DNA of 40,114 nucleotides from a virus. Under the pieces are notes generated by a model that saw only the letters and a program-made list of their open reading frames with translations, ran no database searches and was not told where the DNA came from. Made by a program: the position numbers and the translations under genes. Shown piece after piece: positions 1,517 through 22,365 of this stretch (position 1 is the first letter of the stretch; the number at the start of each line of letters is the position of its first letter). The stretch covers positions 1 through 40,114 of the IMG/VR virus record IMGVR_UViG_3300045961_000189. The stretch is one strand, 5' to 3'.

Positions 1517-2089
1517 ATGAGTTATTCAATTTCTACTTTAAAAATTGCTTTGGGCATTTCAGTAACTGAAAATAAGAAATTAACCAAGGAACAAAAAGTA
1601 AAGGTACTTGAGTTTATTCAGAATGGAACAGATTCACAAGTTCAACATTTAGCATTAACAGGAGAAGTTAAGAAAGTATTTACAGAAGCAGAAAAGAAAC
1701 AATTACAGGAAAAAATTGAAAGTAGTAAGTTAATTAAAGAACAAATTTTAACTGAAGGTCCTGTTGGAAGTATTTTAGGAATGATGATTTTTACTCCTTT
1801 TATTTGGGCAGCATGGAGAACAATTGCAGGTTTGGTTAGTTCAAAAAGAAGAAAGTGTGGAATGTATAGAATTTCAGAAGAAAGAGATAAATGTATAGAT
1901 AGAGTAAATATTTTTGAATATCAGAAAAAAATTGATGTAATCAATAAAGCTGCTAAAGATTGTCCAAAAAATAAAGATCCAAAAAGATGCCAAGCTAAAC
2001 ATGATTATGCTTTAGATAAAATGAAAGCAAAATTAAAGAAGGCAGAAGATAAATATAAAATGAGATGGGGGCAAGCAGCAGTAAAATAA
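1517..2089 (+). CDS. Small membrane protein with C-terminal four-Cys module (paralog A)
   Basis: The start is ATG 1517, with GGAGG at 1507-1511; a TTG at 1505 in the same frame overlaps that binding site and is rejected. The 190-residue protein has an N-terminal helical domain (about 20-75), one transmembrane segment (about 82-108) and a basic C-terminal helical region with Cys114, Cys126, Cys149 and Cys158. The spacing C-x11-C-x22-C-x8-C and the KDPKRC signature match the proteins at 20289-21071 and 21091-22365, so the three are paralogs. The N-terminal domains also share a pattern (F-I ... L-A-L-x-G-E). No known family is recognised. The cysteine spacing suggests a helical hairpin held by two disulfides, which is inference. 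Confidence 0.85.
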   Translation: MSYSISTLKIALGISVTENKKLTKEQKVKVLEFIQNGTDSQVQHLALTGEVKKVFTEAEKKQLQEKIESSKLIKEQILTEGPVGSILGMMIFTPFIWAAWRTIAGLVSSKRRKCGMYRISEERDKCIDRVNIFEYQKKIDVINKAAKDCPKNKDPKRCQAKHDYALDKMKAKLKKAEDKYKMRWGQAAVK

Positions 2090-2106
2090 GAAAGGAATTT
2101 TTATAA

Positions 2107-2667
2107 ATGTACAAAGAGAAAATAATAGAACTACTACAAAACAATTTGAGTGAAAGAGCTTTTAAATTATGGCAAGGAATAAATTCAATTGTTCCTGATA
2201 TTTGGGATAGACCAACATCATCAACTGGAAAACATCATAAGAAATTGAATGGAGATATTCCAACACAAGCAGAGCATGTTTATCAAATGTTATATTCTGC
2301 TTCTAAAATTATACAATTATTTGGAATAGATAAGATGACCCAAGAATCAGATAAAATTTTGTTGGCTATCGCTATGCATGATATTCTCAAATATGGTGAC
2401 ATGGGAAGCAGACCATACACAGATAATTGGCATGATAAGAAAGCTGCCGACATGATTGCATCGAACAAAGAAACCTTCTTGAAGATTCTAACAGAAGATC
2501 AATTTTTCACAATGGAAGAAGCTGTTAGATTTCATTCTGGAAGATGGAGTACGGATGCAAAGAATAAAACATTCACATGGAAGGAATATAATCCAGAAAC
2601 ACTATTCACACATATGCTCGATATGATGAGCACATATGATTTAATTCAAACAGATGTGAGGGAATAA
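2107..2667 (+). CDS. HD-domain metal-dependent phosphohydrolase
   Basis: This 186-residue protein carries the ligand set of the HD superfamily: His57 (AEHVYQM), His91-Asp92 (AMHDILKYG), His109 (NWHDKK), His143 (RFHSGRW) and a distal Asp172 (HMLDMM). The segment before the first His (PTSSTGKHH) resembles the entry of other HD hydrolases. Such enzymes cleave phosphoester bonds in nucleotides, cyclic nucleotides or nucleic acids using bound metal. The exact substrate cannot be read from the sequence. The gene sits between a small membrane protein and structural genes, 3 bp from the next start. A nucleotide-metabolism or anti-defence role is possible but not shown. Confidence 0.85.
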   Translation: MYKEKIIELLQNNLSERAFKLWQGINSIVPDIWDRPTSSTGKHHKKLNGDIPTQAEHVYQMLYSASKIIQLFGIDKMTQESDKILLAIAMHDILKYGDMGSRPYTDNWHDKKAADMIASNKETFLKILTEDQFFTMEEAVRFHSGRWSTDAKNKTFTWKEYNPETLFTHMLDMMSTYDLIQTDVRE

Positions 2668-2669
2668 AA

Positions 2670-3266
2670 TTGACAATAGCATCAACTATAGTCATTCCTG
2701 AGTTACAATATTGGATCAATAAATTTATTGTAAATTCTACGGTTAATAAAAATGGTGTTCATACTCCGTCAGCTCTTGATCCTCTATATCTTCCACAAAA
2801 ATCTTTTATAGAAATGCTATTCAATGATGATTATTCGTGGGATGAATATAAATATATTTACAAACAAAAAGAAAGAGGATCTTGGCCAACACCAATTTCT
2901 GTAAGACTTAATCTATATCCAGCATCTGCAAAGTATTATGAATTATCAACTGATTCAACTGGGGAAAATTTATTTCTATTACAAGCAGATGATTTGACTA
3001 TGTTAAATGCACTATTGTCTTATAGAGTTGATGCTACATCTGTTACGATTTTTGATTCAACATCTGGAATTGTATATGAGGATTTGTCTACTCCATTATC
3101 TAAATTGATCTATTTATATTTAGATCTAAAAGTAAATGAAAACTTTTCAAGGTATGATAATACAACATTGGTCTCTCAGGGAACCCTTCTTGAAACATTT
3201 TACGAACTTTATGTGCTAGACCAATTCTTCAATTCTACGACAACTCAATTTTTAACTCTTGGGTAA
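2670..3266 (+). CDS. Putative baseplate/tail structural protein
   Basis: This 198-residue protein has a TTG start at 2670, with GAGGG about 7 bases upstream overlapping the end of the HD gene; no ATG lies near the 5' end. It has no recognised family. The composition is typical of a phage structural protein: many Tyr, Ser, Thr and Asp, no cysteine and no membrane segment. It lies 13 bp upstream of the 702-residue baseplate-to-fibre protein in the same operon, so a part in the baseplate or fibre attachment is inferred from position only. Confidence 0.7.
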   Translation: MTIASTIVIPELQYWINKFIVNSTVNKNGVHTPSALDPLYLPQKSFIEMLFNDDYSWDEYKYIYKQKERGSWPTPISVRLNLYPASAKYYELSTDSTGENLFLLQADDLTMLNALLSYRVDATSVTIFDSTSGIVYEDLSTPLSKLIYLYLDLKVNENFSRYDNTTLVSQGTLLETFYELYVLDQFFNSTTTQFLTLG

Positions 3267-3279
3267 CTGAGGATACAAG

Positions 3280-5388
3280 ATGGCTTTCTATAATAAATAT
3301 AGTCCTGACGAGCTGCTATGGCTTCTATTACGAGCAGCTAGCGGAGAAGAGGTTCCTGAATTAACAGAATCATTAAATTCTCTTGCTAAATCTGAAAGAG
3401 CGTTGACTGATCTTTTCTTTGCAAAAGTAATTGATCAACAAACATTCAATACTCCAGACTATCAAAGATTTAGAAAGCTACTAGTAGATTGGATTTCTGC
3501 ACATAAAACAATTACAGCAGCATCAACAAAAATGGCAGACCCAAGAGGTATGACAAATGATGATCTTGACGAGTTATTTAGAAGTTTTGGATTCAATTAT
3601 TCAACATCATTAAAAGGACCAACTTCAGACCCTCTAGCACAAAAAGTTAATCTATTTCTAGACCTTGTTAATCTATATAAGAAAAAAGGAACACCACAAG
3701 CTATCTTCGAAGTTCTTCAATATTATGGTGTTACACAAGTTGATATTTTCGAATTCTTTTTACAGTTTGATAAAACCCTTGCATTGATATTCAAGGGAGA
3801 TGTAATCACAGGTTCAACAATAAGTCCTACATCGTTAATATATCCTTATGATACATTAACAGTAGATGATCCACACTGGCTTTTAACAGAAGCACAAATC
3901 AGAAATCTTCATTCAACATTAAAAATAAACCTTCCTTCAAAGACAAATTATTTAGGAGTAAGACCTGTTGCTACAGCAGATGGTCCAGAGTTTTCTATTT
4001 ACAGTAGATTGATTCAAGATCAGTATTACGACTATAGATTCAGAGGAATACTCCCACCTGAAAATGCAGAAATTTCAATGATTGGAGAAGTTCACTCATT
4101 ATTAGAACTTCATTTATCTACTCTATATGTATTTCAAAAATTATATGGAGTAGGATCATTTGGTGATCAATTTTCTTGCTATGATGGAACATCATCTGTT
4201 GATAATGTTACAGATATTATTGCAGAGTATAATGAAATAAACATAAGACCTAGCGCATTATATACTGGTGGAGCAAGAATACATAGAGAAGTTCTATTAA
4301 GAGAATACTACGATAAATTCTGTAGGCTAACTCCAAGAAATTTCTTACAAACACCGATTGATCCTACAACTGTTCTTAATGAAATTGACTCAACAATTAT
4401 TCCAAAAATAGATGATCTTACTGCATCTTTGGAAGAAATTTTATTTGTAATGTTGAAAGATATAGCCAACTGGATTAGAAATAATGTTGGTTATGGTTTC
4501 ATCAATTTTGGTTTTATTATCTTTGGTCTTGATGCTTTCTTCTCAGACTTAAAACAGGTTATCAATTTCTTCAAACCATATCGTGCAAGATTATTATTCT
4601 TAGAAGCTCTTCAAGTTAAAAGCCCATTATTTGAATCAATCAATATTGAAGAAGAATGGGAACACTATCCGGAAGAAATCGTGCATGATCACATAGTCGC
4701 GGACAGTCATCCATGCTGTGTTGAAAATGTTGATGAAATAGACGCGACCGCGCATATGTGTTTTGATTCAACTGCTACATATCATGCAAGAGAATTTTTT
4801 GATTGTGGAAGTTGGTTTGACATTGGAGCTGTTACAGATAACAATAGAGAACTGTTTATAGAAGTTGATGAAATTCGTGATGAATATGTAAAATGTAGAT
4901 ATGATAGCACCGCTGTAATGACTCATAACTTGATAGATGGAACTAGTGATCCAACAATCTTTATGCCAGGCGATAGTACAGCAGAAGTTGTAATTCCTGG
5001 TACAACATCAACAGTTCTAACAACATCAGGTTTAGGAGATTTTGATTATGGTGGTTGCTTTGATAATATGCATGGGTTTGAGGTTGTATATATTACTGTT
5101 GAACAAGTATCCTCTAGTTCATCAAGTTCAACATCATCAAGTTCTTCCAGCTCTGCTAGTGAGGCCCAATTAACTGCTGATATTGTATGGGGTCAAATTA
5201 GCGATGCTGATGAACCTGTAATGAAAACATTTGATACAAACTGGACTCAAACAGATGGTGGAACAGAAGGAACTGGAAACACAGAAAAACTTTTAGTTTA
5301 CAATGGTGGAATTGGGGAATCAGAAATTTGGAATTTAGGCTCTGGTCCAGCTAGAGTTATTTTAGATAAATATCAACAAGGAGAATGA
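3280..5388 (+). CDS. Baseplate-to-fibre protein, gpI-like N-terminal part, poly-Ser linker
   Basis: This 702-residue protein has an N-terminal half with the segment KKKGTPQAIFEVLQYYG (about 134-150). This resembles the 'kGTp.ai..vl' motif of P2 gpI-type tail proteins, which join baseplate wedge and fibre. The middle (about 470-590) is rich in Cys, Asp and His and repeats the tetrapeptide DSTA three times. A poly-serine linker (about 611-629) precedes a short C-terminal beta-rich domain. Its stop codon overlaps the ATG cluster of the next gene (ATGATGATG). The likely role is structural, anchoring the adhesins that follow. The assignment rests on one short motif and on position. Confidence 0.65.
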   Translation: MAFYNKYSPDELLWLLLRAASGEEVPELTESLNSLAKSERALTDLFFAKVIDQQTFNTPDYQRFRKLLVDWISAHKTITAASTKMADPRGMTNDDLDELFRSFGFNYSTSLKGPTSDPLAQKVNLFLDLVNLYKKKGTPQAIFEVLQYYGVTQVDIFEFFLQFDKTLALIFKGDVITGSTISPTSLIYPYDTLTVDDPHWLLTEAQIRNLHSTLKINLPSKTNYLGVRPVATADGPEFSIYSRLIQDQYYDYRFRGILPPENAEISMIGEVHSLLELHLSTLYVFQKLYGVGSFGDQFSCYDGTSSVDNVTDIIAEYNEINIRPSALYTGGARIHREVLLREYYDKFCRLTPRNFLQTPIDPTTVLNEIDSTIIPKIDDLTASLEEILFVMLKDIANWIRNNVGYGFINFGFIIFGLDAFFSDLKQVINFFKPYRARLLFLEALQVKSPLFESINIEEEWEHYPEEIVHDHIVADSHPCCVENVDEIDATAHMCFDSTATYHAREFFDCGSWFDIGAVTDNNRELFIEVDEIRDEYVKCRYDSTAVMTHNLIDGTSDPTIFMPGDSTAEVVIPGTTSTVLTTSGLGDFDYGGCFDNMHGFEVVYITVEQVSSSSSSSTSSSSSSSASEAQLTADIVWGQISDADEPVMKTFDTNWTQTDGGTEGTGNTEKLLVYNGGIGESEIWNLGSGPARVILDKYQQGE
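5107..5160 (+). repeat. Poly-serine linker coding repeat 1
   Basis: This stretch codes for a near-continuous Ser run with one Thr, in the 702-residue baseplate-to-fibre protein. The serines use both codon families (TCN and AGY) in mixed order, so this is a protein-level homopolymer and not a pure DNA microsatellite. It separates the main body from a small C-terminal domain and probably acts as a flexible linker. Confidence 0.8.
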
Positions 5389-5390
5389 TG

Positions 5391-7769
5391 ATGAATATAG
5401 TTCAATATAGAACAGCAGCAGACGATATTTCAATTACTAGTCTGCCTTGGACTACATTAGACCCGCCTTATAATTTTACAAGTCTTGGTTATGTCCAATT
5501 AAGAGTTCTCCCTGTTGCAGCAGCAAATATTATTGCTTGTTCAGATAATGTTCTTTTTGCAAAAGTAAATGACGATAGAACTTATAGTGGTGGTGCAGAA
5601 GGAGGTGCTACAGGAACTGGTACAGATTTTGGAACACCTATAGCATTGAACCCTAGTCTAAAAGTAGTTGATTCAGAAGCAACTCCTTTTACTTATATAG
5701 CAACAAAAAATGATAGAGTATTAGCAATTGATTCAACTGGAACAATGTATTTTTGGGGAACATCTGATTACGGAGAACATGGCACAAATTACACTTGGAA
5801 TTATGGAGAAGCTGTTACTCAATACACTACAACATCTCCGGTATTAGGACCAACACAAGGAAAATTAGATGGAGTATTTGTTCCTATAACATGGAGTAGG
5901 GTAGCTCTTGGTTCTAACTTTGCTATAGGTCTTGATACAGATGGAAGAATATGGGGATGGGGAATTGATACATACGGACAAACAGGTGTAAATATAGATC
6001 AAGGTCAAGCTGGTGATGATATATGGCCATATCCTGTTGCAATAGATTCTACAAAAACAGATTGGATTTATATTGATGCTGGAAATGAAACAGCAGGAGC
6101 TATTGATTCAAATGGGCATGTTTATATGTGGGGTAGAAATAATAATGGATTATTAGGGCAAGGATTAACAGAAGGAGAATTGGCATATTCAAAAGTTCCT
6201 CTATATGTAAGTATATCATCTTTCATTGCGGAAGAGGTATTTGTAAGAAGTACATTTGTATTAGCAAGAAGCTCAAATAATATTTATATGCGTGGATGGG
6301 GAATCAACTCAGTTGGAATGATGGGAACATTGATAACTTCTTTGACTCCTGCATGGGTTACCACTTATCTTGATAAAGGTGGAAAATATGCAATAGGGGA
6401 AAATCATGGTTTATGTACAGACGAATGTGGTAACATATTTTCATTTGGTTTAAATACAGGCGGAGCTCTTGGTACTGGAAATACAAATTCTTCTTATTAT
6501 TCTATTGGTTTTAGAACTGTAGTGTTTGTAGGAGAAGGAGATTTTGATCTTGAAACAAGACATTTTGTAGATATATTTGCTGGTGATGGAATTAGTATGG
6601 CATTAGATGATTCAGGGAGAGTATATGTTTGGGGTAATATACAAGATGGAAGTTATACACAAGTATATTCTCCTTTACAATGGCTTATTGGAAATTTTAT
6701 GCCATCATCATCTTCAAGTTCATCATCTAGTTCATCATCTTCTGTAAGCGATACTGCTGTTGAAGAAGATGGAATTACATTTAGAACTAATCAAGGAGAA
6801 TTCCCTTGGGTTCTACAAGACTCTGTAACTAATTCTCCGGGTTATGCTTTTAAAGCTCAAGTTTCATTAGAAATGGCAAGAGCTAGACTAGTACCAGATA
6901 TTCAAGGACCAGGCGTAGCATCATTTTATTGGAAGACGTTTACATCTGATCAAGGTTATAATCAATTAGCTTTATATCTAACAGAACAAGATTATTACGA
7001 TAGAGATCCTTATGATTCTATATCAGGGGATTGGGATTGGGATCCATATATTGTAGAAATAAATGCAGATCAAAAAATAATAATTGCATTTGAAAATGAT
7101 TATGTATATCAGTTTCCTGATGATGTTGCTTATGTTGATGATTTTACATTTAGTGTAAGTTCAAGTTCTTCATCTTCAAGAAGTAGTAGCTCAAGCTCTA
7201 GATCATCTAGTTCTAGTTGTCGTTCGTCTAGTTCTAGTTGTAGATCTAGTTCTAGTTCAAGTTCAAGTAATAGAGCTGTTCTAGTTAGTTATTCAAGTTC
7301 AAGTTCATCATCTTGTAAAAGCTCAAGTAGTTCAAGTAGTTCATCAACTACAATGAGTACAATAGTCTATGAAAGTGAAACATATGAAATAGTAGGGACA
7401 GTTATTGTAGATACAAGTGTTTATTATTCAGCTCCAAATTCTTTAAGAATTCCAAATACTGTTTCTGGTGGAAAAACTTTAGCACAAAGATATATAACTG
7501 GACCTGGTATTTTAAGTTTTAGATGGGTAATGATTCCTTACGATTATTGGGGAGATTGTGGAATAAAATTTCAGATTGATGGAAGAACAATTCTTACTGT
7601 GTATGGCCAAACATCTTGGCAGACAGGACTTCCATTGTGGGAGCAAAGAACAATCGAAGATTTTCCATCAGGAAGTCATTTGGTTACATGGCTTGTTGTT
7701 GGTGCAGGAACATATTGGAGTGGACCAAATTACGCATATATAGATGATATTGTATTCACACCAACTTAA
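5391..7769 (+). CDS. Tail adhesin with RCC1-like repeats, poly-Ser linkers and two jelly-roll-like domains
   Basis: Three tandem ATGs lie at 5385, 5388 and 5391; the third has the best spacing (7 nt) from AAGGAG at 5378-5383. The roughly 792-residue protein begins with about five RCC1-like beta-propeller blades, seen as repeated G-x-(I/M/V)-(W/Y)-x-W-G motifs such as TMYFWGTSDYGEHG and RIWGWGIDTYGQTG. A poly-Ser linker (about 440-455) leads to a beta-sandwich-like domain containing GPGVASFYWK and ending in YVDDFTF. A long Ser linker with interspersed Arg, Cys and Lys (about 588-655) leads to a second such domain with GPGILSFRW and YIDDIVF. The two beta domains look like duplicates. The likely role is a distal tail fibre or receptor-binding adhesin. 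Confidence 0.75.
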   Translation: MNIVQYRTAADDISITSLPWTTLDPPYNFTSLGYVQLRVLPVAAANIIACSDNVLFAKVNDDRTYSGGAEGGATGTGTDFGTPIALNPSLKVVDSEATPFTYIATKNDRVLAIDSTGTMYFWGTSDYGEHGTNYTWNYGEAVTQYTTTSPVLGPTQGKLDGVFVPITWSRVALGSNFAIGLDTDGRIWGWGIDTYGQTGVNIDQGQAGDDIWPYPVAIDSTKTDWIYIDAGNETAGAIDSNGHVYMWGRNNNGLLGQGLTEGELAYSKVPLYVSISSFIAEEVFVRSTFVLARSSNNIYMRGWGINSVGMMGTLITSLTPAWVTTYLDKGGKYAIGENHGLCTDECGNIFSFGLNTGGALGTGNTNSSYYSIGFRTVVFVGEGDFDLETRHFVDIFAGDGISMALDDSGRVYVWGNIQDGSYTQVYSPLQWLIGNFMPSSSSSSSSSSSSSVSDTAVEEDGITFRTNQGEFPWVLQDSVTNSPGYAFKAQVSLEMARARLVPDIQGPGVASFYWKTFTSDQGYNQLALYLTEQDYYDRDPYDSISGDWDWDPYIVEINADQKIIIAFENDYVYQFPDDVAYVDDFTFSVSSSSSSSRSSSSSSRSSSSSCRSSSSSCRSSSSSSSSNRAVLVSYSSSSSSSCKSSSSSSSSSTTMSTIVYESETYEIVGTVIVDTSVYYSAPNSLRIPNTVSGGKTLAQRYITGPGILSFRWVMIPYDYWGDCGIKFQIDGRTILTVYGQTSWQTGLPLWEQRTIEDFPSGSHLVTWLVVGAGTYWSGPNYAYIDDIVFTPT
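6703..6744 (+). repeat. Poly-serine linker coding repeat 2
   Basis: A run of about 14 serines is encoded by TCA, TCT and AGT codons in mixed order. It separates the RCC1-like propeller from the first beta-sandwich-like domain of the adhesin. Confidence 0.8.
7154..7347 (+). repeat. Long Ser/Arg/Cys linker coding repeat 3
   Basis: This stretch codes for about 65 residues, mainly Ser with regular Arg and Cys interruptions including two SSSSSCR heptads, plus a short non-repetitive break (about 7273-7293). The 15-mer TCTAGTTCTAGTTGT occurs exactly at 7206-7220 and again at 7227-7241. The Arg and Cys codons differ from AGY/TCN Ser codons by single bases, so they could be drift from Ser or selected positions. 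Confidence 0.8.
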
Positions 7770-7782
7770 GAGGTAAAAAATA

Positions 7783-9798
7783 ATGAGATTAGGGGATGTT
7801 GTTTTAAAATTAGGAAGTAGTTCTTCCAGTGCTTCTAGTTCTGTTACAGGCTCTTTGGGATCTGTTCTCCTAAATTTTGTATGTGAGATTGATCTAGATT
7901 ATATTTATGACCTTATAACAACATCCGATGGAAATTATTTAGCGGCTTGTACAGCTGGTTATGCTTATAATGCTTTAGTTAAATTTAACAAAGATAGAAT
8001 AATATGGGCAAAGGCTTTTAGAATTAAACATGAAGGTCCATATGGAGAAGGGGGATTTGTTTCAGAAATAGATGGAGCATATTATATGACCCATAAATAC
8101 TGGACTGATACAGAAACATACAGTTCAGCAATGATTTATAAGATTGATGTAAATGGAAATGAGCTTTGGCATAGAAGTTCTTATAGTTGTTGGGCAGACG
8201 ATTTTCCAAGAGGAATTATTGAATCATTTGATAGTACATCAATAATTTGGTTTTTTAGTTATTATGATGGAGGCGGAGATTTTAGTGGTGGTTATACGCC
8301 TGTATTTTATAAATTAGATAAAGAAACAGGAGATACAATTTGGGTTAAAGGAATTGCAAATGATGGGTATGGAGTTTATATACAATTAATAAAAACAGAT
8401 GATAATAACTATATGGTTGGTCATAGTTTAAGACCAAATTATAATATGGATTGGTTATATAATGGCACTGTTAATTATCAACCTATGTTAATAAAAATGG
8501 ATAGTGATGGAAATAAACTTTGGGCAAAACATTATTATAGAAAAAATCTCCGTATAACAGATATTATAACTTCATTAAAACAAACTGCTGATAGTGGATA
8601 TATCGCTTTAATAGATGCTGTATCTGGTCCAATGTTTGGTCCATATATTTATGATACTCTTGTATTAAAAGTTAATTCTTCTGGTGTTCCTGAATGGTGT
8701 ACTAAAATAGAAGATACAGGAGCACAAGGAAATTATTTTGATGATGTTCCATGTAAAATTCATGTTATGGATGATGGATATGTATTTATATGTTATGATG
8801 CTTCTGGTGGGCAATACAATCTAATAAAATTGAGTCTTACTGGAAGTTTTATTTGGAGAAGAAAAATAGATACTTCTGATTTAGATATGGGAGATATTTT
8901 TGATGCAACAGTTGAAATGAATGATAATGGATTTGTAATACACGGACTAGGAAGTGGAGAATTTGGACAATTAGCTTTAGTTTTATTTCAAACAGATTTT
9001 GATGGAGAACTTCCTGGTTGCCCGTATATATTAGATGGAACATCAACTAATATAGTAGAAGGATATGTTTCAGAAATTGTTTATGAGACAGCTTATATAA
9101 ATATAATAGATGCAACTTATTTATGGACTTTTGAACAACCTACAGCTACAATAGATTTTGATTTAGTATTATCTAATATATGTTCAGGAGTTACTCTTGG
9201 TTGTAGTGAATATTTTAATGGAACAGATGGAAGTTCATTTACATCTGATGTATTATATCATAGTTATAATACAGGTGTTCAACCAACTATTCAATATAAT
9301 AGTTTACAATTTATAGCAGATTCTAGACATGACTATACAACAACATTCTCATATTTAGGAGAATTTGAAGCTTATATTTCTTTTGAAGTTAATAATAGTA
9401 AAACTCCTACTGGAACAGGAAACTGGGTATCTTTTGAAACAGAAGAAGGAGATACTTGGGTTTCTTATACATTTGGTAATACTCATAACCCACCTGAAAC
9501 TGCTTATTATGAAGCAGATGGATGGGATGGGGGAAGTAACTGGTTTTATGATTATGTTCAAACAACAGATGTTTATGGAAAATTAAAAATAAAACGTGAT
9601 GCTAGTAATAATGTATATGTTTCTTATTGGAACGCAGGATCAAATCGTTGGGAATGGAATGGAGATACAAATGGTTTATTAACTGAAAATGTTTCTGGCG
9701 CATATACATTATTGTTTGATTGTTTCCTAACAGATGGAAGTATATTATCTATAAATGAATTTGTTACAATTAGTGGTTGTGGAAACATATCGTCATAA
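7783..9798 (+). CDS. Tail adhesin with PQQ-like beta-propeller and LamG-like C-terminal domain
   Basis: This 671-residue protein begins with a short poly-Ser segment (about 12-21) and then a propeller of repeated blades of the form 'hydrophobic-x-K-x-(D/N)-x-x-G-x-x-x-W', for example KIDVNGNELWH, KLDKETGDTIWVK and KMDSDGNKLWAK. These PQQ/WD-type blades span roughly residues 30-420. The C-terminal part (about 470-665) is beta-rich and resembles a laminin-G/concanavalin-like carbohydrate-binding fold. It follows the RCC1-type adhesin by 13 bp and has AGAGG upstream of ATG 7783. A host-recognition role at the fibre tip is likely; the ligand is unknown. Confidence 0.7.
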   Translation: MRLGDVVLKLGSSSSSASSSVTGSLGSVLLNFVCEIDLDYIYDLITTSDGNYLAACTAGYAYNALVKFNKDRIIWAKAFRIKHEGPYGEGGFVSEIDGAYYMTHKYWTDTETYSSAMIYKIDVNGNELWHRSSYSCWADDFPRGIIESFDSTSIIWFFSYYDGGGDFSGGYTPVFYKLDKETGDTIWVKGIANDGYGVYIQLIKTDDNNYMVGHSLRPNYNMDWLYNGTVNYQPMLIKMDSDGNKLWAKHYYRKNLRITDIITSLKQTADSGYIALIDAVSGPMFGPYIYDTLVLKVNSSGVPEWCTKIEDTGAQGNYFDDVPCKIHVMDDGYVFICYDASGGQYNLIKLSLTGSFIWRRKIDTSDLDMGDIFDATVEMNDNGFVIHGLGSGEFGQLALVLFQTDFDGELPGCPYILDGTSTNIVEGYVSEIVYETAYINIIDATYLWTFEQPTATIDFDLVLSNICSGVTLGCSEYFNGTDGSSFTSDVLYHSYNTGVQPTIQYNSLQFIADSRHDYTTTFSYLGEFEAYISFEVNNSKTPTGTGNWVSFETEEGDTWVSYTFGNTHNPPETAYYEADGWDGGSNWFYDYVQTTDVYGKLKIKRDASNNVYVSYWNAGSNRWEWNGDTNGLLTENVSGAYTLLFDCFLTDGSILSINEFVTISGCGNISS

Positions 9799-9809
9799 GG
9801 AGATTAAAT

Positions 9810-10139
9810 ATGGAACTTATAAATGTTTGTGAAGTAAAAGCTATCATAAGTGGAGTTACATATACAGAAATAGTTGATGATGATATAGACTCCATCAATG
9901 AAGCATTAAAAAATATGGGAATAGAAAATAAAACTAATTCTGATCCTTCATCTGATATAAAATTTTTGAAAAAAATGAGAAAGAAATATAAAGATTTAGA
10001 AGATCTAGAAATTCAAAAATTTTCTCAGGATACTGAAACATCAGACCTCTATATAGTTACAAAATTAGAAGATTACAATGTTAGAAATGTATTAAAAGAT
10101 ATAAGACAAAAAGAAAAAAGAAGTCATAAAAAATTTTAG
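9810..10139 (+). CDS. Hypothetical protein, possible adhesin accessory factor
   Basis: The start is ATG 9810, preceded by AAGGAG at 9797-9802; an earlier in-frame ATG at 9777 lies inside the adhesin gene and has no binding site. The 109-residue protein is charged. Its N-terminal half looks like a small alpha/beta domain and its C-terminal half is a Lys/Glu-rich helix ending in a basic tail. No family is recognised. It is the last gene of the plus-strand operon, directly after two adhesins, a position often held by fibre-assembly chaperones; that role is only a guess here. Confidence 0.7.
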   Translation: MELINVCEVKAIISGVTYTEIVDDDIDSINEALKNMGIENKTNSDPSSDIKFLKKMRKKYKDLEDLEIQKFSQDTETSDLYIVTKLEDYNVRNVLKDIRQKEKRSHKKF

Positions 10140-13931: not shown

Positions 13932-13969
13932 ATCATCCTCCAATAAATAGGTTAAAGGATTCTATTATT

Positions 13970-13988: not shown

Positions 13989-14069
13989 GCAAAAATTGCT
14001 AACTTGTAGTCTTTTTGAGAACAAAATAGAAAATAGGATCTTCCATCTGAGGTATAAGGGATTAAAACT

Positions 14070-14765: not shown

Positions 14766-14855
14766 AGGAATTTTATTTTAGACCTGGTGAGAAAGGACTC
14801 TGTATCTTAGAGATTAATTTATTAGAGAATATAATTTTATTCGGAGGAAACTACC

Positions 14856-16832
14856 GTGGCTAATGTTTCACCAGGTGTCTATACGAAGATTATAGACCTA
14901 TCAACTTATGTACAAGCAGTTCCATCAACAATTGGTTTTGCTTGCGGATTAACAAGAAAAGGAAGAGATAATGAGTTAGTATTCGTAGGATCCCGCTCAG
15001 AATTCATTACAGAGTGGGGGGAACCAAATGTAAACGATTATGGAAAGAATTACGGACAAGGCCCTTATATCGCCTATAACCATCTAGGAGAATCAGGAGC
15101 ATTGTATTGGATTAGATGCCTTCCATCAGATGCAGCTTATGCAAATCTAAGAATTGATACAAGATTAGCAAGTGCAGATGCAACAGCATCAATATCAATT
15201 ACATATGTAGATGCAGTTAATACAATTGATGAAATTAAAACAGGGTTAGAAGTTAGTGGTGATACTCAACCATTGTGTTACATCTATCCAATTGGAAGAG
15301 GTGACTATTACAATGCATTGGGTATTAGATTTACAGAACATTCAAATCCAACATTGAGTGGAGTATATGTCCTAGATATATACGAAAGACAAGCTGATGG
15401 TTCGGATGTTATTATTGAATCATTCGAAGTTTCATTTGATCCATACGCAACAGATGTTTCTGGTGACTCAATTTTCATCAGCTATGTTCTAGCAACATAT
15501 TCATCAGTTCTAAGAGCAGATATGTTGAAGTCAAACGGTTTCTATACATCAGGTTATGATTTGATTGTTAGATCATATGATAAAGAAATCGGTGCGATTA
15601 CAATTAACTCAACCGATGGTACTGCTTCATTAACAGATAATAAACAAGATTTTTCTGATTGGGATAAAGACCCAGAATCAGGAAATTCAAATTACGTTCT
15701 AATTGTAAAAGATGCAAGAGGAACAGAAATTTGGGGATGGATGGGTGCTGCAGGTGGAACAGAAAATGATACCGTCAATATTTTCAATGAAAGAAATCTA
15801 ACCACAGCAAGTCAAAATTGGAATGGTGATACAGCCAATTTTGATTACAACTCAACAATCACATATGATGTTAAGAAAGCAAAAGCAAGTGTAGCAACTG
15901 CATTTATATCATCTGAACCAGCTCCTTTGAAGAAAGGGTCTGAAGGTTCTCTAAGAAATGCTGAAGGAACAGTAGATCCTACAACAGCAGAAAATTTACT
16001 AGAACAAGCATATTCTGGATTACTAGTAAGCACAACAGGTGATTATGTTGATGATATTATGGATACCGATTTAGTTTACTTCTCAATCGTATATGATGCT
16101 GGTTATCCATCAGATGTTAAAACTGCTATCAGTACACTTTGCAATACCAGACGTGACTGTGTTGGAATTATGGACAATGGAGATAATGCTACATTCAATC
16201 TAGCTATTTCAAGAAGAACATCAGTTCATACATTCAACAATTACTATGTTTCACTATATGAATCATTTAACAAAATTTCCGATGCTTTCTCAGGAAATGA
16301 TATTTGGGTTTCTCCCGTATATCATCTATCATACTTACTACCAAGAAATGATAATGTTGCAGAACTATGGTTTGCAGCAGCAGGTTTTAACAGAGGAGCA
16401 ATTGAATCAATTAAAGAACTAAGATTCAATCCAAGATTGAGTCAACGTGATCAAATGTATCTAAAACAACTAAACCCAATTTGTAAGTTCTCAGCAGGTT
16501 ATGTTGTTTGGGGACAATTAACATCACAAACAAAACCAAGTGCTATGCAAGATTTGAATATCGTCAGACTTGTTCTATATTGCAAGAAAGCAATTGAACA
16601 ATACTGCCGTAACTTCATCTTTGAGCAGAATGATCCTATTACATGGGGTCAAGTAAGTGGTGCAATTACAGACTTCCTAGAAGTAGTTAAGAATAGACGT
16701 GGTTTAGATAATTATTCAATTGATGTTGGTGCAACAGAATACGAAAAGAAAACCAAAACATTCCATGTCAATGTAACATTACAACCAACCAGAGTTGTAG
16801 AAAAGATTGAGTTGAATTTCTACATCAGATAA
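14856..16832 (+). CDS. Tail sheath protein
   Basis: This 658-residue protein uses a GTG start at 14856 with GGAGG at 14842-14846. The N-terminus VSPGVYTKIIDLSTYV followed by PSTIGFACGLTRKG is typical of contractile sheath proteins. The C-terminal third holds the conserved sheath core: LNPICKF, an RLVLYCKKAIEQYCRNFIFEQND helix region, and a final strand region with KTKTFHVNVTLQPTRVVEKIEL, where neighbouring subunits exchange strands. The protein forms the outer contractile cylinder around the tail tube. A bidirectional terminator follows. The tail tube gene is not adjacent but lies about 2.7 kb further on, beyond an antisense cassette. The 90-bp gap before the gene shows no clear promoter. Confidence 0.95.
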   Translation: MANVSPGVYTKIIDLSTYVQAVPSTIGFACGLTRKGRDNELVFVGSRSEFITEWGEPNVNDYGKNYGQGPYIAYNHLGESGALYWIRCLPSDAAYANLRIDTRLASADATASISITYVDAVNTIDEIKTGLEVSGDTQPLCYIYPIGRGDYYNALGIRFTEHSNPTLSGVYVLDIYERQADGSDVIIESFEVSFDPYATDVSGDSIFISYVLATYSSVLRADMLKSNGFYTSGYDLIVRSYDKEIGAITINSTDGTASLTDNKQDFSDWDKDPESGNSNYVLIVKDARGTEIWGWMGAAGGTENDTVNIFNERNLTTASQNWNGDTANFDYNSTITYDVKKAKASVATAFISSEPAPLKKGSEGSLRNAEGTVDPTTAENLLEQAYSGLLVSTTGDYVDDIMDTDLVYFSIVYDAGYPSDVKTAISTLCNTRRDCVGIMDNGDNATFNLAISRRTSVHTFNNYYVSLYESFNKISDAFSGNDIWVSPVYHLSYLLPRNDNVAELWFAAAGFNRGAIESIKELRFNPRLSQRDQMYLKQLNPICKFSAGYVVWGQLTSQTKPSAMQDLNIVRLVLYCKKAIEQYCRNFIFEQNDPITWGQVSGAITDFLEVVKNRRGLDNYSIDVGATEYEKKTKTFHVNVTLQPTRVVEKIELNFYIR

Positions 16833-16842
16833 TTTAGTCAAA

Positions 16843-16884
16843 AAAAATAGCTGCTTGGGGATCAAACCTCAAGCAGCTATTTTT
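16843..16884. terminator. Bidirectional rho-independent terminator
   Basis: An 18-bp stem with one G-T wobble and a 6-base loop is flanked by A on the left and T on the right, so it can end both the sheath transcript (plus) and the radical SAM cassette transcript (minus). Confidence 0.9.
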
Positions 16885-16888
16885 CTCC

Positions 16889-17443
16889 CTATAGGGATTT
16901 AGATTCTTCTATTGCCTCTTCAAAATCGACAATATTCTTAATTGTATTTTCTACGAATTTGGCTCGCAAAAGATTAAGAACATTTGTTATATTAACTACA
17001 AATAATGGTCTTCCATTATTTCTTGCTTCATCATGCATATCATCATAACCATCTTTGCTCATCGTCGTTCTCATTTTACATCTTTCTATATAACTCAAAA
17101 AAGTTTCTTCGCTTTCTTTGTAGAATACTTCTGACTTAACTTCTGCACCGCTAAACGATCTTTTTGCTTCTGTATTATTAACTATAAAACCAAGACCTTC
17201 CAAAATTTTTAAGGAATAAAAAGTTGCAATTGCCGCTCTTTTTGTTCCTGGTGTCATAGTCAAAAAATCGTTGCATTGGTATAACATAAGATAATTTTTA
17301 ATTTGAGCAGAATCAACTCCCTTTGCACTTAAGATCACCATGTCAATATCTATAAACCCATCGAAATTAAAATCTTTTGGAATGGCAACATATTCATTTA
17401 AGAAAATTAACTGTGGTATTTGTTGATGGATAATTGTGAACAT
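16889..17443 (-). CDS. Hypothetical protein, last gene of the radical SAM cassette
   Basis: This 184-residue protein starts at ATG 17443 with GAGG about 5 bases upstream, 6 bp after the end of the preceding gene. No family is recognised. It has no membrane segment and no pair of closely spaced cysteines. Near the N-terminus (about 23-34) the segment DFNFDGFIDIDM resembles a calcium-binding loop of the EF-hand/dockerin type, but a single short match is weak. It is probably co-expressed with the radical SAM enzyme and could be a partner or substrate, or unrelated. Confidence 0.7.
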   Translation of the reverse strand: MFTIIHQQIPQLIFLNEYVAIPKDFNFDGFIDIDMVILSAKGVDSAQIKNYLMLYQCNDFLTMTPGTKRAAIATFYSLKILEGLGFIVNNTEAKRSFSGAEVKSEVFYKESEETFLSYIERCKMRTTMSKDGYDDMHDEARNNGRPLFVVNITNVLNLLRAKFVENTIKNIVDFEEAIEESKSL

Positions 17444-17449
17444 TTTACC

Positions 17450-18004
17450 TCAATGATGGCTAATTGTTATGTGTGGTAGTTTTCTAAAAGTGTACCCTGT
17501 TTCATAACCATGTTCTAACTCACTACCTTCTTGAGAGTTATCAGAAAATTCAAATTTATATAGAAATCCTTCTGGATTTCTTTTTAAAAAGTCAACCGTG
17601 TATTCTTTTGCATAAATTTTCTTTTTTAAATCTTTTTCTTTCCATACTGCTTCTCTCCATAATGGATTATTAAATGCTTCTGAGTAATTACTATATCTTC
17701 TTTCTGCATGCTCTACTTCAAAACTTCTTTGACCAAATCTTCTTCTTCCCTCTATCTTATCTTCTATTTCTTGAATATATCCTCTTTCAACTTCTTCACC
17801 AACAAATTTTAAGATTTTCTTTATTTGGCTTTGAATAAGAGGAATTGGTACTTGATCTTTTATTTGGGCAAATACTCTTTTGGCTTTCCATTCTGGTTGA
17901 ACAAAACCAGAAACTTCCTCAAGAGTTTTAACTTGCATTGGAAATATAACAATAAAAACAGAACTACTTGAATTTGTTACAAAATCAGTTTTTACTTTCA
18001 TCAT
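17450..18004 (-). CDS. Protein with N-terminal DFVTNSSSS motif, coupled to radical SAM gene
   Basis: The ATG at 18004-18002 overlaps the TGA of the radical SAM gene (ATGA), and a second ATG follows immediately at 18001-17999. The 184-residue product begins with MMKVKTDFVTNSSSSVFIVI. From memory, an N-terminal motif of the form (K)x(K/R)xDFVTNSSSSSF recurs in otherwise different hypothetical proteins of bacteria and phages; its meaning is not established. The rest is Lys/Glu/Arg-rich and probably helical (about 60-130), with a beta-rich C-terminus rich in His near the end. The coupling suggests that enzyme and protein act together. Confidence 0.75.
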   Translation of the reverse strand: MMKVKTDFVTNSSSSVFIVIFPMQVKTLEEVSGFVQPEWKAKRVFAQIKDQVPIPLIQSQIKKILKFVGEEVERGYIQEIEDKIEGRRRFGQRSFEVEHAERRYSNYSEAFNNPLWREAVWKEKDLKKKIYAKEYTVDFLKRNPEGFLYKFEFSDNSQEGSELEHGYETGYTFRKLPHITISHH

Positions 18005-19011
18005 ACCCCCGCAGGACAAGTGTTCCTTTTCTTCAAAAGAATTTTTCTTGCCTTCATGAATATTTCTGAATTATCCCATACATCTTTTATTGTTTTATCT
18101 GTAATAGAAACCCCTTCTCCCATATTACAAAAACTACATGGCATCATTCTCATAGTAGGGCTAATATATGCTGACATTCTTGATGCCTCACAAGTATCAA
18201 GAGACATTTTTTCTGCCTCTGTAAGAGAAGCAATAAACTCGCAATAATAGTTTACTAAACAACTATCCATCCCAATTTTAAATGGAAGTGGTTTTTCTTG
18301 AACTTCTTTTATAGCTTGGGATAAAAGATTGATTTGATATGCGGTAGGTTTTAGATCAGCCATTTGTTCAGCTCTTCCTCTTTGTTTAAACAGAAGAAAG
18401 ACAACCGCATTTAATCTTTTAAGATCAACCTTTCCTTCCCAAATGTCTTCTCCTTTTAAAAGAGAAATTGCATGATCGAATGTTTGTTTTGAGAAAACAA
18501 AATGAATGTTTGTTTTAACCTCAGAATCCATAAACATTTTCAAAGCGTCGTATGTAAATGGTTGATAATAGTTGGAAATTGCAACAGCTCCACAATATCG
18601 TTTTGATAAATCTACTTCTTCTTGAGTTAAATCTCTTCCACTAGTTGTATAGTTAGGAACAACTCTGTTGTGTTTTGCATACATCAAAAACTCTTCAAAC
18701 TGAGGGTGTTTGTTTGGGTCCCCTCTTCCACCTAAAGCAACCTGGTTTGTATGGTGTTTAATTTGATCAATAATCTTAATAAAATCAGCTATATCCATGT
18801 GGTCTTCTTCTACATCCCCTTGATAACAGATTGGGCATTTATTATGACAATGCCCCATAATTCCAATATCAATTAGAGATGGGAGTTTCAAACTGAATGG
18901 ATCTGGTTTTCCTTCAACTCCAGATAGAACTTCAAAACCAGTCTTTGTGCAATACCCTAGAAAATAATCATTGTCCACATAGATTTTGTCAAAAACTAAT
19001 TTCTCTTGCAA
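18001..19011 (-). CDS. Radical SAM enzyme with SPASM-like C-terminus
   Basis: The start chosen is TTG 19011, with GGAGG 5 bases upstream; an earlier in-frame TTG at 19053 lies inside the preceding gene and has no such site. The 336-residue protein has the Cys55-x3-Cys59-x2-Cys62 signature (GHCHNKCPICYQ) that binds the [4Fe-4S] cluster, and GGRGDPNKHP, the GGE-type SAM-binding motif, near residue 95. The C-terminal part carries more cysteines (MDSC, YYC, DTCEASR, MMPCSFC, NTC) in SPASM-like order, suggesting an auxiliary cluster. Such enzymes often modify peptides. It is not adjacent to other metabolic genes. Confidence 0.9.
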   Translation of the reverse strand: MQEKLVFDKIYVDNDYFLGYCTKTGFEVLSGVEGKPDPFSLKLPSLIDIGIMGHCHNKCPICYQGDVEEDHMDIADFIKIIDQIKHHTNQVALGGRGDPNKHPQFEEFLMYAKHNRVVPNYTTSGRDLTQEEVDLSKRYCGAVAISNYYQPFTYDALKMFMDSEVKTNIHFVFSKQTFDHAISLLKGEDIWEGKVDLKRLNAVVFLLFKQRGRAEQMADLKPTAYQINLLSQAIKEVQEKPLPFKIGMDSCLVNYYCEFIASLTEAEKMSLDTCEASRMSAYISPTMRMMPCSFCNMGEGVSITDKTIKDVWDNSEIFMKARKILLKKRNTCPAGV

Positions 19012-19012
19012 T

Positions 19013-19249
19013 TTATCCTCCCATTTTTTTTGATATATAGTCAAGAATATCAAGTAGATACAATGACCTAATTAAAACAATAATTGCCATGATAGGAAAC
19101 CATAAAGATGTTCCACCAAAAAATAATGGCAATACAACAAATAAAATAAGATAAGATAATCCTAAAGCTCTTCTACTTAACGCATCTATTTTCCAATTTA
19201 AAACCAATAAATAATATACCGGACTGAAGCTAATACTTTTAATACTCAA
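19013..19249 (-). CDS. Small membrane protein, first gene of the radical SAM cassette
   Basis: This 78-residue protein has a TTG start at 19249 with AGGAG 6 bases upstream. It has two strong hydrophobic segments (about 29-45 and 48-68) and a possible weaker one at the N-terminus. No family is recognised. Its stop codon is 1 base from the TTG of the radical SAM gene, so the two are tightly coupled. A membrane anchor or partner for the cassette is possible. Confidence 0.7.
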   Translation of the reverse strand: MSIKSISFSPVYYLLVLNWKIDALSRRALGLSYLILFVVLPLFFGGTSLWFPIMAIIVLIRSLYLLDILDYISKKMGG

Positions 19250-19294
19250 TTCTTACTCCTTTCTTTCTTCAAAAAAATTGAATTTCTTCACTCT

Positions 19295-19313
19295 TCAATT
19301 ATTTATATATATA
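19295..19313. promoter_or_regulatory. AT-rich divergent-junction element, copy C
   Basis: TCAATTATTTATATATATA differs from copies A and B at two positions. It lies 45 bp from the start of the minus-strand radical SAM cassette and 72 bp before ATG 19386 on the plus strand. TAAGAACAAAATG follows at 19349-19361. It is the third of three divergent junctions in the window, and all three hold this element. Confidence 0.6.
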
Positions 19314-19385
19314 GCATTGAGGTAATAAACCGAGATCTTTGGAAATATTAAGAACAAAATGTAAATTATCTATCGGTGGGCTTTT

Positions 19386-19577
19386 ATGAGATTAATAGAT
19401 TTTTACTTAGAATATATACAAAAAAATGATGAATCTTTTTCGGTGGATTCATTCCCACAAAAACAAATAATTATTAAGAAGAAAAAGAGGACCATAGTTT
19501 CGGAACAAAATACAAATGACAGTTACATAATGAAAAATAGGAGATCAATTTTGGAGGTTTTAGAAAATGGCTATTAA
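19386..19577 (+). CDS. Small hypothetical protein upstream of tail tube
   Basis: This 63-residue, Lys-rich product begins at ATG 19386; the upstream GGTGGG is a weak binding site. It ends 11 bases inside the tail tube gene, whose own ribosome binding site (GGAGG, 19552-19556) lies within it. No family is recognised. It could instead be an untranslated leader, so the gene call is tentative. Confidence 0.45.
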   Translation: MRLIDFYLEYIQKNDESFSVDSFPQKQIIIKKKKRTIVSEQNTNDSYIMKNRRSILEVLENGY

Positions 19578-20277
19578 GAATTCATTTGCCAACGTACCAA
19601 ATAATAGACTTAACAGAAATTTTGGTGGAACTGTAACAGGAATAGCTGATCCTTATATTACCGGGTATCACTTTGTTTATTTTGCAAAAATTCCTACACA
19701 GTTGCCAAAGTACGCTCTACTACCAGATGTTCAAACAATCACAAATCTTTTAGCAGGAGCTTGCTTATCAGTAACCCCACCTGGCGGAACTCTAAATAAA
19801 ATCGAGTTCACAGGATTGGGAGGAATCAAATGGGCAGTACCAGGAAACATTGATTATGGTAATTCAGTATCAGTTAAGTTCTTAGAATTCTCAGGAACAC
19901 CAATCCTAAACATTTTCCACGGTTGGGTTAAGATGATCAGAGACTACAGAACAGGTACTGCAAATCTAACTGGAAATGATTACACCAAATCATTGTATTC
20001 ATGTGTTATGTATTACTGGACAACACAACCAGATGCAAAGACAGTTGAGTATTATGCTGCATATGACGGTGTATTCCCAACAAAAGATCCACAAGATTTA
20101 TTTACAAGTGATGTAGAATCAATCGGAAGACTTGATCCAGAAATCGAGTTCAATGTCGATTATCTATGGCATGAAGATTGGGTTAAAACAAAGTGCCAAG
20201 AGTTAGCAGAGCAAGTATATGCAATTAAAGCAAACGTAATTGAAAAGTATGGGCAAACAGTAGCTTCAGCAACCTAA
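19567..20277 (+). CDS. Tail tube protein
   Basis: This 236-residue protein starts at ATG 19567 with GGAGG upstream. Segments typical of T4 gp19-like tube proteins are VSVKFLEFSGTPILNIFHGW and the following MIRDYRTG, with a further YYAAYDGVFP strand near the C-terminal third and the acidic end of a beta-barrel (EIEFNVDYLW). The subunits stack as hexameric rings to form the inner DNA channel of the tail. It belongs with the sheath gene functionally, although a minus-strand cassette separates them. The two genes that follow encode unusual cysteine-tailed membrane proteins. Confidence 0.92.
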   Translation: MAIKNSFANVPNNRLNRNFGGTVTGIADPYITGYHFVYFAKIPTQLPKYALLPDVQTITNLLAGACLSVTPPGGTLNKIEFTGLGGIKWAVPGNIDYGNSVSVKFLEFSGTPILNIFHGWVKMIRDYRTGTANLTGNDYTKSLYSCVMYYWTTQPDAKTVEYYAAYDGVFPTKDPQDLFTSDVESIGRLDPEIEFNVDYLWHEDWVKTKCQELAEQVYAIKANVIEKYGQTVASAT

Positions 20278-20288
20278 AGAGGATAATT

Positions 20289-21071
20289 ATGTTTATTCCA
20301 GAAAATTACAACCCTTACGACTCGCTATTATTTGATATGGCTTGTCGTGAGAGTTTATGTCTTATGGTTGATTTATCTTCCGTTCCTCATAAGAAAGAGT
20401 TAAAAAGATATATAACAAAAGAAGCATCCTCTTACGAAGTTCTATCTTTTGTTATTGGAAATCAAATGCCTAAAGAAAATCATACCATAGAAGATGAGAG
20501 ATTATTATTTGAACAATTCAAAACAATGTTATTGATTAACAAAAATGAAATAAGTCCATATATAGGAGAGAGTGTTATTCAAGAGATAATTTCAAATGTT
20601 GACACTCTCTCTATTCTTACGGAAGCAGATGCAGCAAATCCTCAACTTATGACCGGAGTTGGAAACACAGCCGTTAAGGCATTAGCAGGAAGTACTATTG
20701 CTATGTCTATAAGACATTTTTTTATGTCACCAATGTCTGCTGGTGTTGCTGCATTGGTTGGAAAATTATCAACAGCAATAGCAGGGCTAGGTGTTGCTGC
20801 CCTTGTTGCTCTCATGGCTTATGCTAGTTATAAAGTTTATAAAAACTTTTTATCTAAAGCAGCTAAGGCTTGTTCTGATAAAGAAGGAACAGAAAAGAAA
20901 ATGTGCATGAAAGAATTTGAGATTCAGGGGATTAGTGCACAACTTGCTGATATGAGAAAAGGTCTTTCTGCTTGCAGTAAATCAAAAGATCCAGAAAAGT
21001 GTCGTGAAGCATTAAACAAAAAGATGCAAAAAGTCAAAGAAAAATTAGATAAAGCAAGAACCAACATTTAA
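20289..21071 (+). CDS. Membrane protein with C-terminal four-Cys module (paralog B)
   Basis: This 260-residue protein lies 11 bp after the tail tube gene, with AGAGGA as binding site. An N-terminal helical domain (about 15-110) is followed by a hydrophobic stretch with one or two membrane segments (about 130-180) and a basic helical C-terminus with Cys195, Cys206, Cys229 and Cys238. The spacing C-x10-C-x22-C-x8-C and the signature KDPEKC place it with the proteins at 1517-2089 and 21091-22365. The position among tail genes suggests a virion or ejected protein that meets a membrane, but no family or function is known. Confidence 0.85.
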   Translation: MFIPENYNPYDSLLFDMACRESLCLMVDLSSVPHKKELKRYITKEASSYEVLSFVIGNQMPKENHTIEDERLLFEQFKTMLLINKNEISPYIGESVIQEIISNVDTLSILTEADAANPQLMTGVGNTAVKALAGSTIAMSIRHFFMSPMSAGVAALVGKLSTAIAGLGVAALVALMAYASYKVYKNFLSKAAKACSDKEGTEKKMCMKEFEIQGISAQLADMRKGLSACSKSKDPEKCREALNKKMQKVKEKLDKARTNI

Positions 21072-21090
21072 TTTAGGAGAGGAAAATAAA

Positions 21091-22365
21091 ATGATTATTC
21101 ATGAGCGTTTAAATTTAACAGAATCAATTCAATTTTTGATCTGCATGAGAAGAGCAGTTGCTGAAGCTGTTTGTAAATCAAATCAGTTATCAGATATTCA
21201 AAGAGTTAATTTGAGAAACTTTGTATTGAAGGAAGCATCTGATTATGAAATAATGAGCCTAGCTTTAAATGGAGAACTTCCTGATAAGAAATATGATTCA
21301 AATGCAGAGTTAAGACTGTTCAGTAATCTAAAGGAAGCTATTTATGTAGATTACAAAGAGCTATCAGAAGCTCTAGACGTTGATGTTCTACAAACAATTA
21401 TTTCAGAAATTGGACCAATTCATCCAATTACATCTACTGCCCTTCCTGTTCTAGAACATTATCTTTCAGAAGAACCAATGTCAGATGATGAAGGTGATCC
21501 TGAAAAGGTAAGAAAAGCAACATCCGCAATTAAGAATTTTGTAAAGGATGCTGGTGAAGCATTAGATAAGGGAACAGCAAAAGCAGCAGATAAAGCAAAT
21601 GAACTTGGAGCTAAAGCAAAGGCTGCTATGGCAGATCCAGAATTCAGAAAAGATTTACAAAACTGGATGAAAGAAAAAGGAGCTGATGCACAAGCCGCTC
21701 TAAAACATTTCAAAGACAAACTACAAGGATATCATGCAAAGAGTCAAGACTATGGTGCAAGACATCCCGAAGCAAGACCAAAGACTGATCTTAAAGGCGA
21801 TGTTGAACACGCTGTTGGTAAAGCTGTAGAAAAAGGAAAAGAAATTGCAGGCAAAGCAGTAGAGAAAGGAAAAGAAGCAGTAGGTGCTGCAAAGAAACTT
21901 GCAAAAGATCATGATGTTGAAGGAAAGGTTGCAAGAGGTGCCGAAGCTGTTGCTAGTAAAGCAAAAGGCGCATATAACCAAGCAAAAGAACTTGCTGGAA
22001 AACCTGCTGGAGAAACAATTGCTAAAGGTGTAGAAAAAGCACATCAGGCATACGAAAAAGGAAAAGAGTATGCTGGAACAACTGGTGGTGCTGCTCTAGC
22101 TGCAACTGCTCTAGCTGGAATGGCTGCATATGGTGCTTCCAAAATTTATAAGAGATTCTTCTCTCAAGCTGCAAGAGCATGCTCAGGAAAATCAGGTGCT
22201 CAAAAAACAGCTTGTATGCAACAATTTAAAGTAAAGGCAGCACAAGCTAAAGTTCAAAGCCTAGTTAGATCAAAGGCAACTTGTAAGAAAGCCAAAAATC
22301 CACAAAAATGTATGGCTGCTATTGACGCAGAAATTCAAAAAGCAAAAGCAAAGTCTGGAAAATAA
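21091..22365 (+). CDS. Long membrane protein with C-terminal four-Cys module (paralog C)
   Basis: This 424-residue protein has GGAGAGG upstream. Its N-terminal domain (about 1-120) aligns with that of paralog B (FVLKEASDYEIMSLAL against YITKEASSYEVLSFVI). A long Ala/Lys/Glu-rich helical middle (about 150-320) follows, with imperfect 11-residue repeats such as KAVEKGKEIAG and KAVEKGKEAVG that recall LEA or apolipoprotein-like amphipathic repeats. A short hydrophobic segment (about 328-345) leads to Cys364, Cys375, Cys398 and Cys407, again C-x10-C-x22-C-x8-C with KNPQKC. The middle is an insertion compared with the paralogs. The function is unknown. Confidence 0.85.
   Translation: MIIHERLNLTESIQFLICMRRAVAEAVCKSNQLSDIQRVNLRNFVLKEASDYEIMSLALNGELPDKKYDSNAELRLFSNLKEAIYVDYKELSEALDVDVLQTIISEIGPIHPITSTALPVLEHYLSEEPMSDDEGDPEKVRKATSAIKNFVKDAGEALDKGTAKAADKANELGAKAKAAMADPEFRKDLQNWMKEKGADAQAALKHFKDKLQGYHAKSQDYGARHPEARPKTDLKGDVEHAVGKAVEKGKEIAGKAVEKGKEAVGAAKKLAKDHDVEGKVARGAEAVASKAKGAYNQAKELAGKPAGETIAKGVEKAHQAYEKGKEYAGTTGGAALAATALAGMAAYGASKIYKRFFSQAARACSGKSGAQKTACMQQFKVKAAQAKVQSLVRSKATCKKAKNPQKCMAAIDAEIQKAKAKSGK

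Follow-up and report, generated by a model that had tools for sequence, protein, structure and literature searches.

We report a family of phage proteins whose C-terminal part is a basic, predicted helical hairpin with four cysteines at nearly fixed positions. The carriers found are all large, uncultivated T4-like viruses of microbes, often with multiple copies. Three members (proteins 1 to 3, Table 1) are encoded in the window, the whole stretch of 40,114 nucleotides analysed here (IMG/VR record IMGVR_UViG_3300045961_000189). The family is undescribed and its module unusual, its genomic logic is clear, and its role is probably a familiar one, played in large phages by accessory proteins of the virion or the membrane. 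The explanation that we consider best, with a probability of roughly 0.4, is one by analogy: the members may be accessory proteins carried in the virion, like the internal proteins of T4, and delivered to the host envelope. Conserved, widespread and nameless, the family marks accessory slots whose position in the head and tail clusters of large T4-like phages is fixed.

An earlier note on this DNA had pointed to three open reading frames with shared cysteine spacings, and the observation as a whole was confirmed. Protein 1 has C-x11-C-x22-C-x8-C and proteins 2 and 3 have C-x10-C-x22-C-x8-C, and at the last two cysteines the three proteins agree exactly in the arrangement C3-x-K-x-K-[DN]-P-x-[KR]-C4. 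Searched with a degenerate DNA pattern that encodes C-x22-C-x8-C and the enclosed K[DN]Px[KR], the window gave three matches, each at one of these genes, against 0 in 100 shuffles. The C-terminus of protein 2 matches that of protein 3 at E 2.6e-18 (38%) and that of protein 1 at E 5.6e-5; the N-termini of proteins 2 and 3 match at E 6.9e-10, and in profile-profile comparison the short N-domain of the group of protein 1 matches the N-domain of the others (Prob 94%, E 1.2e-7). By these comparisons the three proteins are homologous, beyond a common cysteine pattern.

Table 1. Positions of the four-Cys proteins, their parts and their neighbours in the window, and of N-domain paralogs without cysteines at other loci.
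Feature	Position	Strand	Basis or remark
Protein 1 (190 aa), site C copy	1517..2089	+	short N-domain, weakly hydrophobic helix, four-Cys hairpin
Protein 1 short N-domain, residues 5-48	1529..1660	+	profile comparison and AlphaFold2 (AF2)
Protein 1 TM-like helix, residues 94-114, C1 at its end	1796..1858	+	AF2; weak hydrophobicity
Protein 1 four-Cys hairpin, C114/C126/C149/C158, helices 121-146 and 155-184	1856..2068	+	DNA pattern and AF2
Protein 2 (260 aa), site A copy 1	20289..21071	+
Protein 2 N-domain, residues 9-114	20313..20630	+	AF2
Protein 2 TM-like helix, residues 169-194	20793..20870	+	AF2 and hydrophobicity
Protein 2 four-Cys hairpin, C195/C206/C229/C238, helices 200-231 and 235-258	20871..21062	+	DNA pattern and AF2
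Protein 3 (424 aa), site A copy 2	21091..22365	+
Protein 3 N-domain	21103..21435	+	E 6.9e-10 to protein 2
Protein 3 Ala/Lys/Gly/Glu-rich linker, residues 131-335	21481..22095	+	composition
Protein 3 C1 to C4, C364/C375/C398/C407	22180..22311	+	DNA pattern
Tail tube gene, left border of site A	19567..20277	+	PHROG 45, 2e-5; synteny
gp26-like baseplate gene, right border of site A	22402..23181	+	PF12322; synteny
gp25 and next (gp53-position) gene	23372..24438	+	site B between them, empty; genes overlap at 23794
Holin-like gene, left border of site C	877..1500	+	weak PF09682 match below cut-off; synteny
HD-domain gene, right border of site C	2107..2667	+	PF01966, just over Pfam cut-off; synteny
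Cys-less N-domain paralog, L070	7163-7945
Cys-less N-domain paralog, L076	7157-7915
Cys-less N-domain paralog, L081	6677-7600
Cys-less N-domain paralog, L083	7150-7920
Cys-less N-domain paralog, L085	3496-4224
Cys-less N-domain paralog, L129	6023-6805

The description of a three-member family proved far too small, since searches of IMG/VR returned well over 100 relatives. A scan of the whole of IMG/VR with the C2-C3-C4 pattern matched 62 stretches, and C1, which was absent from the search pattern, was present 8, 10, 11 or more residues upstream of C2 in nearly all of them. A profile search gave 86 confirmed relatives, the best 80 of which were kept. In a census over the loci the spacing (10,22,8) occurred 88 times, (8,22,8) 20 times, (12,22,8) 15 times, (11,22,8) 9 times and (14,22,8) 8 times, with few others, where the 22 and the 8 were imposed on the pattern-found loci and not on their paralogs or on profile-found loci. 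The last two spacings are nearly fixed in the family and the first loop spans 8-14 residues. The note had proposed a profile search for conservation of the cysteines in homologs, and 154 modules out of 161 distinct ones retained all four; when sampling was anchored on the tail tube gene and not on the cysteines, 49 of the 57 uncut members had the pattern. The view that the proteins belong to no named family was likewise borne out. No Pfam, PHROGs or NCBIfam profile family covers the four-Cys proteins, and Foldseek comparison with PDB and BFVD gave nothing at E<=1e-3. Four members used as tblastn queries against the INPHARED phages matched no cultured phage, protein 1 alone as query for related loci retrieved no relative, and a literature search found nothing on such a phage family.

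Of the large contigs tested, 9 of 15 had the T4-type MCP (PF07068) and 8 of 9 the S77 prohead protease (PF03420); the window is a fragment without head genes. By its MCP and terminase the lineage belongs to the T4 superfamily. No cultured phage with the same gene arrangement was found, and the nearest cultured relatives differ from gene to gene, being Staphylococcus jumbo phages for the tail tube (about 28%), AR9/PBS1 for gp26 (22%) and a Flavobacterium phage for terL (31%). The GTDB genomes contained one matching contig, of 211 kb, filed under a Woesearchaeota MAG (KatS3mg002), and this contig is probably a misbinned phage because T4-type MCP, S77 protease, sheath and tube are all found on it. 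The large phage contig L137 is BPGB01000002.1, filed, probably through misbinning, in the GTDB MAG Candidatus Woesearchaeota archaeon KatS3mg002.

The common layout proposed in the note stood as regards the N-terminal helical domain and the basic four-Cys tail, and the membrane segment is convincing in protein 2 only. The TM-like helix is Ala-rich and weakly to moderately hydrophobic, with Kyte-Doolittle 19-mer values of 1.46, 1.96 and 1.19 in proteins 1, 2 and 3, respectively, and a family median of 1.55 (above 1.6 in 42%). Family members are probably membrane-seeking. The C side is basic, with a net charge of +10 to +16 in proteins 1 to 3. An Ala/Lys-rich middle is usual in the family, with a median of 121 residues between the domains (n=88), so the idea that one copy had gained a long Ala/Lys/Glu middle was reversed: protein 3 is typical and protein 2 unusually short.

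AlphaFold2 was run with family alignments on proteins 1 and 2, and the module was predicted with pLDDT mostly 84-96. In both models the TM-like helix is followed by a turn, helix A, a second turn (residues 232-234 in protein 2) and helix B. C1 ends the TM-like helix, C2 lies in the first turns of helix A and C3 at its end, and C4 lies in the first turns of helix B; the hairpin turn falls inside C3-x8-C4, not between C2 and C3. The helical hairpin expected in the note was accordingly predicted, and the cysteine pairs that it had assigned, C1-C4 and C2-C3 as in an analogue of twin-Cx9C proteins, were not. A helical tail with two cysteine pairs at spacings of 10/11 and 8 does recall such proteins, but this reading is now very improbable. 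C2 and C3 sit at opposite ends of one predicted helix, 23 residues and about 34 Å apart in both models (axis length, not S-S distance), which makes their pairing impossible within one chain, and prolines are nearly absent between them (10 of 3439 residues, columns 43-67). The joint loss and gain of cysteines also speaks for C1-C2 pairs. C1 and C2 are lost together in the members L074|8265 and L119|7923, and in L134/L009 members, which keep the outer pair; one member in L013 has lost C3 alone. Extra cysteines four residues before C1 and four residues after C2 were seen in 39 of 170 modules, always both and never one of them, giving six-Cys variants with CX3C-x(8-14)-CX3C across the first turn. 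This co-occurrence reflects only about two changes on the tree, and the Fisher p of 2.7e-28 was for that reason withdrawn as independent evidence. Disulfides C1-C2 and C3-C4, favoured by the model geometry and by joint gain and loss in few independent events, are a well-supported inference. At six loci N-domain paralogs with a hydrophobic segment and without cysteines stand immediately upstream of another family member (Table 1), and the staple is thus not always needed.

The minus strand of the window at 16889-19249 holds a radical-SAM/SPASM-like enzyme (18001-19053), a partner beginning MKVKTDFVTNSSSS (17450-18019) and a third gene, with matches in the region to PHROG 7293 and 7397 (function not annotated). 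The radical-SAM gene is found between sheath and tube in reverse orientation in many relatives and is missing there in others. Maturation of the cysteines by this enzyme was considered and rejected, since loci without the gene between sheath and tube (L069, L076, L081, L083 and L085) keep the cysteines.

Copies of the family recur at four sites. Site A lies between the tail tube and gp26-like genes, site B between gp25 and the gene in the gp53 position, site C between holin-like/DUF5675 and HD genes, and site D in the head-core region from portal to MCP. The window has two copies at site A, one at site C and none at site B; in relatives, site B copies often carry two modules. The tail tube, HD and holin-like neighbours named in the note were recovered, the last by a weak match, and the tail tube was found to border only one of the four sites. 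The setting among virion and morphogenesis genes was upheld, with copies among both head and tail genes. Contigs of 62-312 kb carry 1-9 copies, most of them in tail clusters and not in the head cluster. Within the portal-MCP interval, L094 has five copies, L058 two and L143 (MAG contig) one, and the order at site D of L094 is portal, four-Cys protein, acidic protein, three four-Cys proteins, S77 prohead protease, four-Cys protein and MCP. A lone N-domain-like protein without TM-like helix or hairpin is found at site A in L053 (5911-6222) and L229 (5280-5555). Elsewhere in the window, three large genes at 3280-9798 with long serine runs (SSSSSS) adjoin conserved tail genes, and possibly encode fibres or adhesins in which low-complexity serine stretches act as linkers.

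Two copies follow the tail tube gene in the window, as the note had it, and this site is empty in about half of the tube-anchored relatives. Family members were found in 35 of 67 complete tube-gp26 intervals, a count that missed a few occupied intervals which a later analysis recovered. Where site A is empty the tube-gp26 gap is mostly 34-102 bp, and where site B is empty the gap between gp25 and its neighbour is usually 3 bp; contigs with an empty site A may have copies at other places. As the flanking genes abut without an insert in many relatives, the family is an accessory cassette with preferred slots and not a core part of the tail, and an obligatory tail component was rejected on the same empty sites. 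Variable copy number together with empty sites in relatives is likewise more in keeping with accessory proteins than with a core part.

The placement of the copies also bears on two other explanations. T4 head assembly begins on the inner membrane through gp20 and YidC (PMC9026906), and copies of the family adjoin portal and core genes as well as tail tube and hub genes. The proteins could on these grounds be membrane-anchored assembly factors outside the virion, the N-domain tethering proteins of the portal, core or tail hub to the inner membrane and the stapled hairpin serving as anchor. We regard this as possible but rather unlikely, for a platform would not be expected to have 1-9 copies and, in many close relatives, to leave sites A and B empty. 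Were the strongly basic C side to cross the membrane, it would moreover break the positive-inside rule, and with the C side kept in the cytoplasm no disulfides would form. Presence or absence between abutting genes, tandem paralogs, variable linkers and a site C copy next to a holin-like gene would suit late membrane morons, which would act in the host membrane on superinfecting phages, lysis timing or host physiology and draw merely late expression from the structural operons. Expression alone does not explain the recurrent placement in head-core and tail clusters, and no similarity to known exclusion or lysis proteins was found in Pfam, PHROGs or NCBIfam; such a role seems unlikely.

A morphogenesis-linked accessory role is favoured by the placement in head-core and tail clusters, the basic, putatively stapled tail, the flexible linker and the variable number. 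The charge behind the TM-like helix is strongly positive, which speaks against ordinary insertion that leaves the hairpin outside, and the putative disulfides argue against a hairpin kept in the reducing cytoplasm. The two would be reconciled if the proteins were stored in the virion and entered from outside. On the preferred reading of virion carriage, the proteins would be made late from cassettes inserted among structural genes. The N-terminal helical domain, usually followed by a flexible Ala/Lys-rich linker, may be a docking domain that takes the protein into the prohead core or the tail and so into the virion. The proteins would then be delivered to the host envelope along with the DNA, where the Ala-rich TM-like helix and the very basic hairpin behind it, both turns putatively stapled by C1-C2 and C3-C4 disulfides, may insert in the inner membrane or lie on it. 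In a further reading, which we consider improbable, paralogs of the head and tail clusters would be ejected together and assemble a disulfide-stapled helical conduit or tether in the host envelope; if true, this would be an expandable, mix-and-match ejection apparatus specific to this lineage of contractile-tailed giant phages.

The T4 prohead core contains gp21, gp22, gp67, gp68 and basic internal proteins, many of the last being ejected (PMC9026906). Internal proteins of the T4 type have a capsid-targeting peptide at the N-terminus, which the prohead protease cleaves. YLxxLxED-like N-terminal peptides were seen in some head-cluster and short members, and capsid-targeting-like N-termini in L057, L039, L058, L094 and L035. 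Across the family a capsid-targeting regex matched 5 of 92 members, compared with 24 of 398 annotated phage genes and 8 of 1113 other ORFs, which is not significant, and the motif was rejected as a family-wide trait. An acidic protein of the head cluster has a T4-like capsid-targeting start in L058 (6321-7325), L094 (1197-2201) and L035 (8648-9670), reading SYQQLLKEA where T4 has TYQEFIAEA. This start suggests that the capsid-targeting signal is conserved in the lineage.

If the proteins are ejected, they would show the delivery of membrane-active, disulfide-stapled proteins through a contractile tail; if they are not, the family points to virion assembly tethered to the membrane. With the site map and the profile, genomes and genes for a direct test are easily chosen.

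Phage periplasmic disulfide proteins, among them the T4 RI antiholin, are membrane-linked, bear disulfides and have a late gene context. The family resembles them as phage proteins with a putative membrane link and a putative disulfide, and site C adjoins a holin-like gene; on the other hand, no similarity to them was found and most copies are not near lysis genes. Like the family, the T4 internal proteins (IPI-III, Alt) and gp67/gp68 are basic accessory proteins, and in genomes with T4-type MCP and S77 protease some family members are encoded within the portal-protease-MCP interval. In contrast, no sequence similarity to these T4 proteins was found, the T4-type N-terminus MKTYQEFIAEA is absent from the window proteins, and the T4 internal proteins lack the TM-like helix plus four-Cys hairpin of the family, whose packaging is putative. 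Twin-Cx9C (CHCH) proteins share with the family four cysteines in a small helical region and spacings near 9. They have two antiparallel helices with two cysteines on each (PMC3848088), nine residues apart, whereas in the family a single helix runs from C2 to C3, and the neighbouring helices bear C1 and C4. The alpha-hairpinins, plant peptides in which a loop connects two antiparallel helices with the motif CX3C...CX3C (PMC7191063), have an arrangement that is found in the 39 six-Cys modules and not in the window proteins, a likeness for which homology is not claimed. Compared with alpha-hairpinins, the first helix in the family is the TM-like helix, and most members have the inner pair only.
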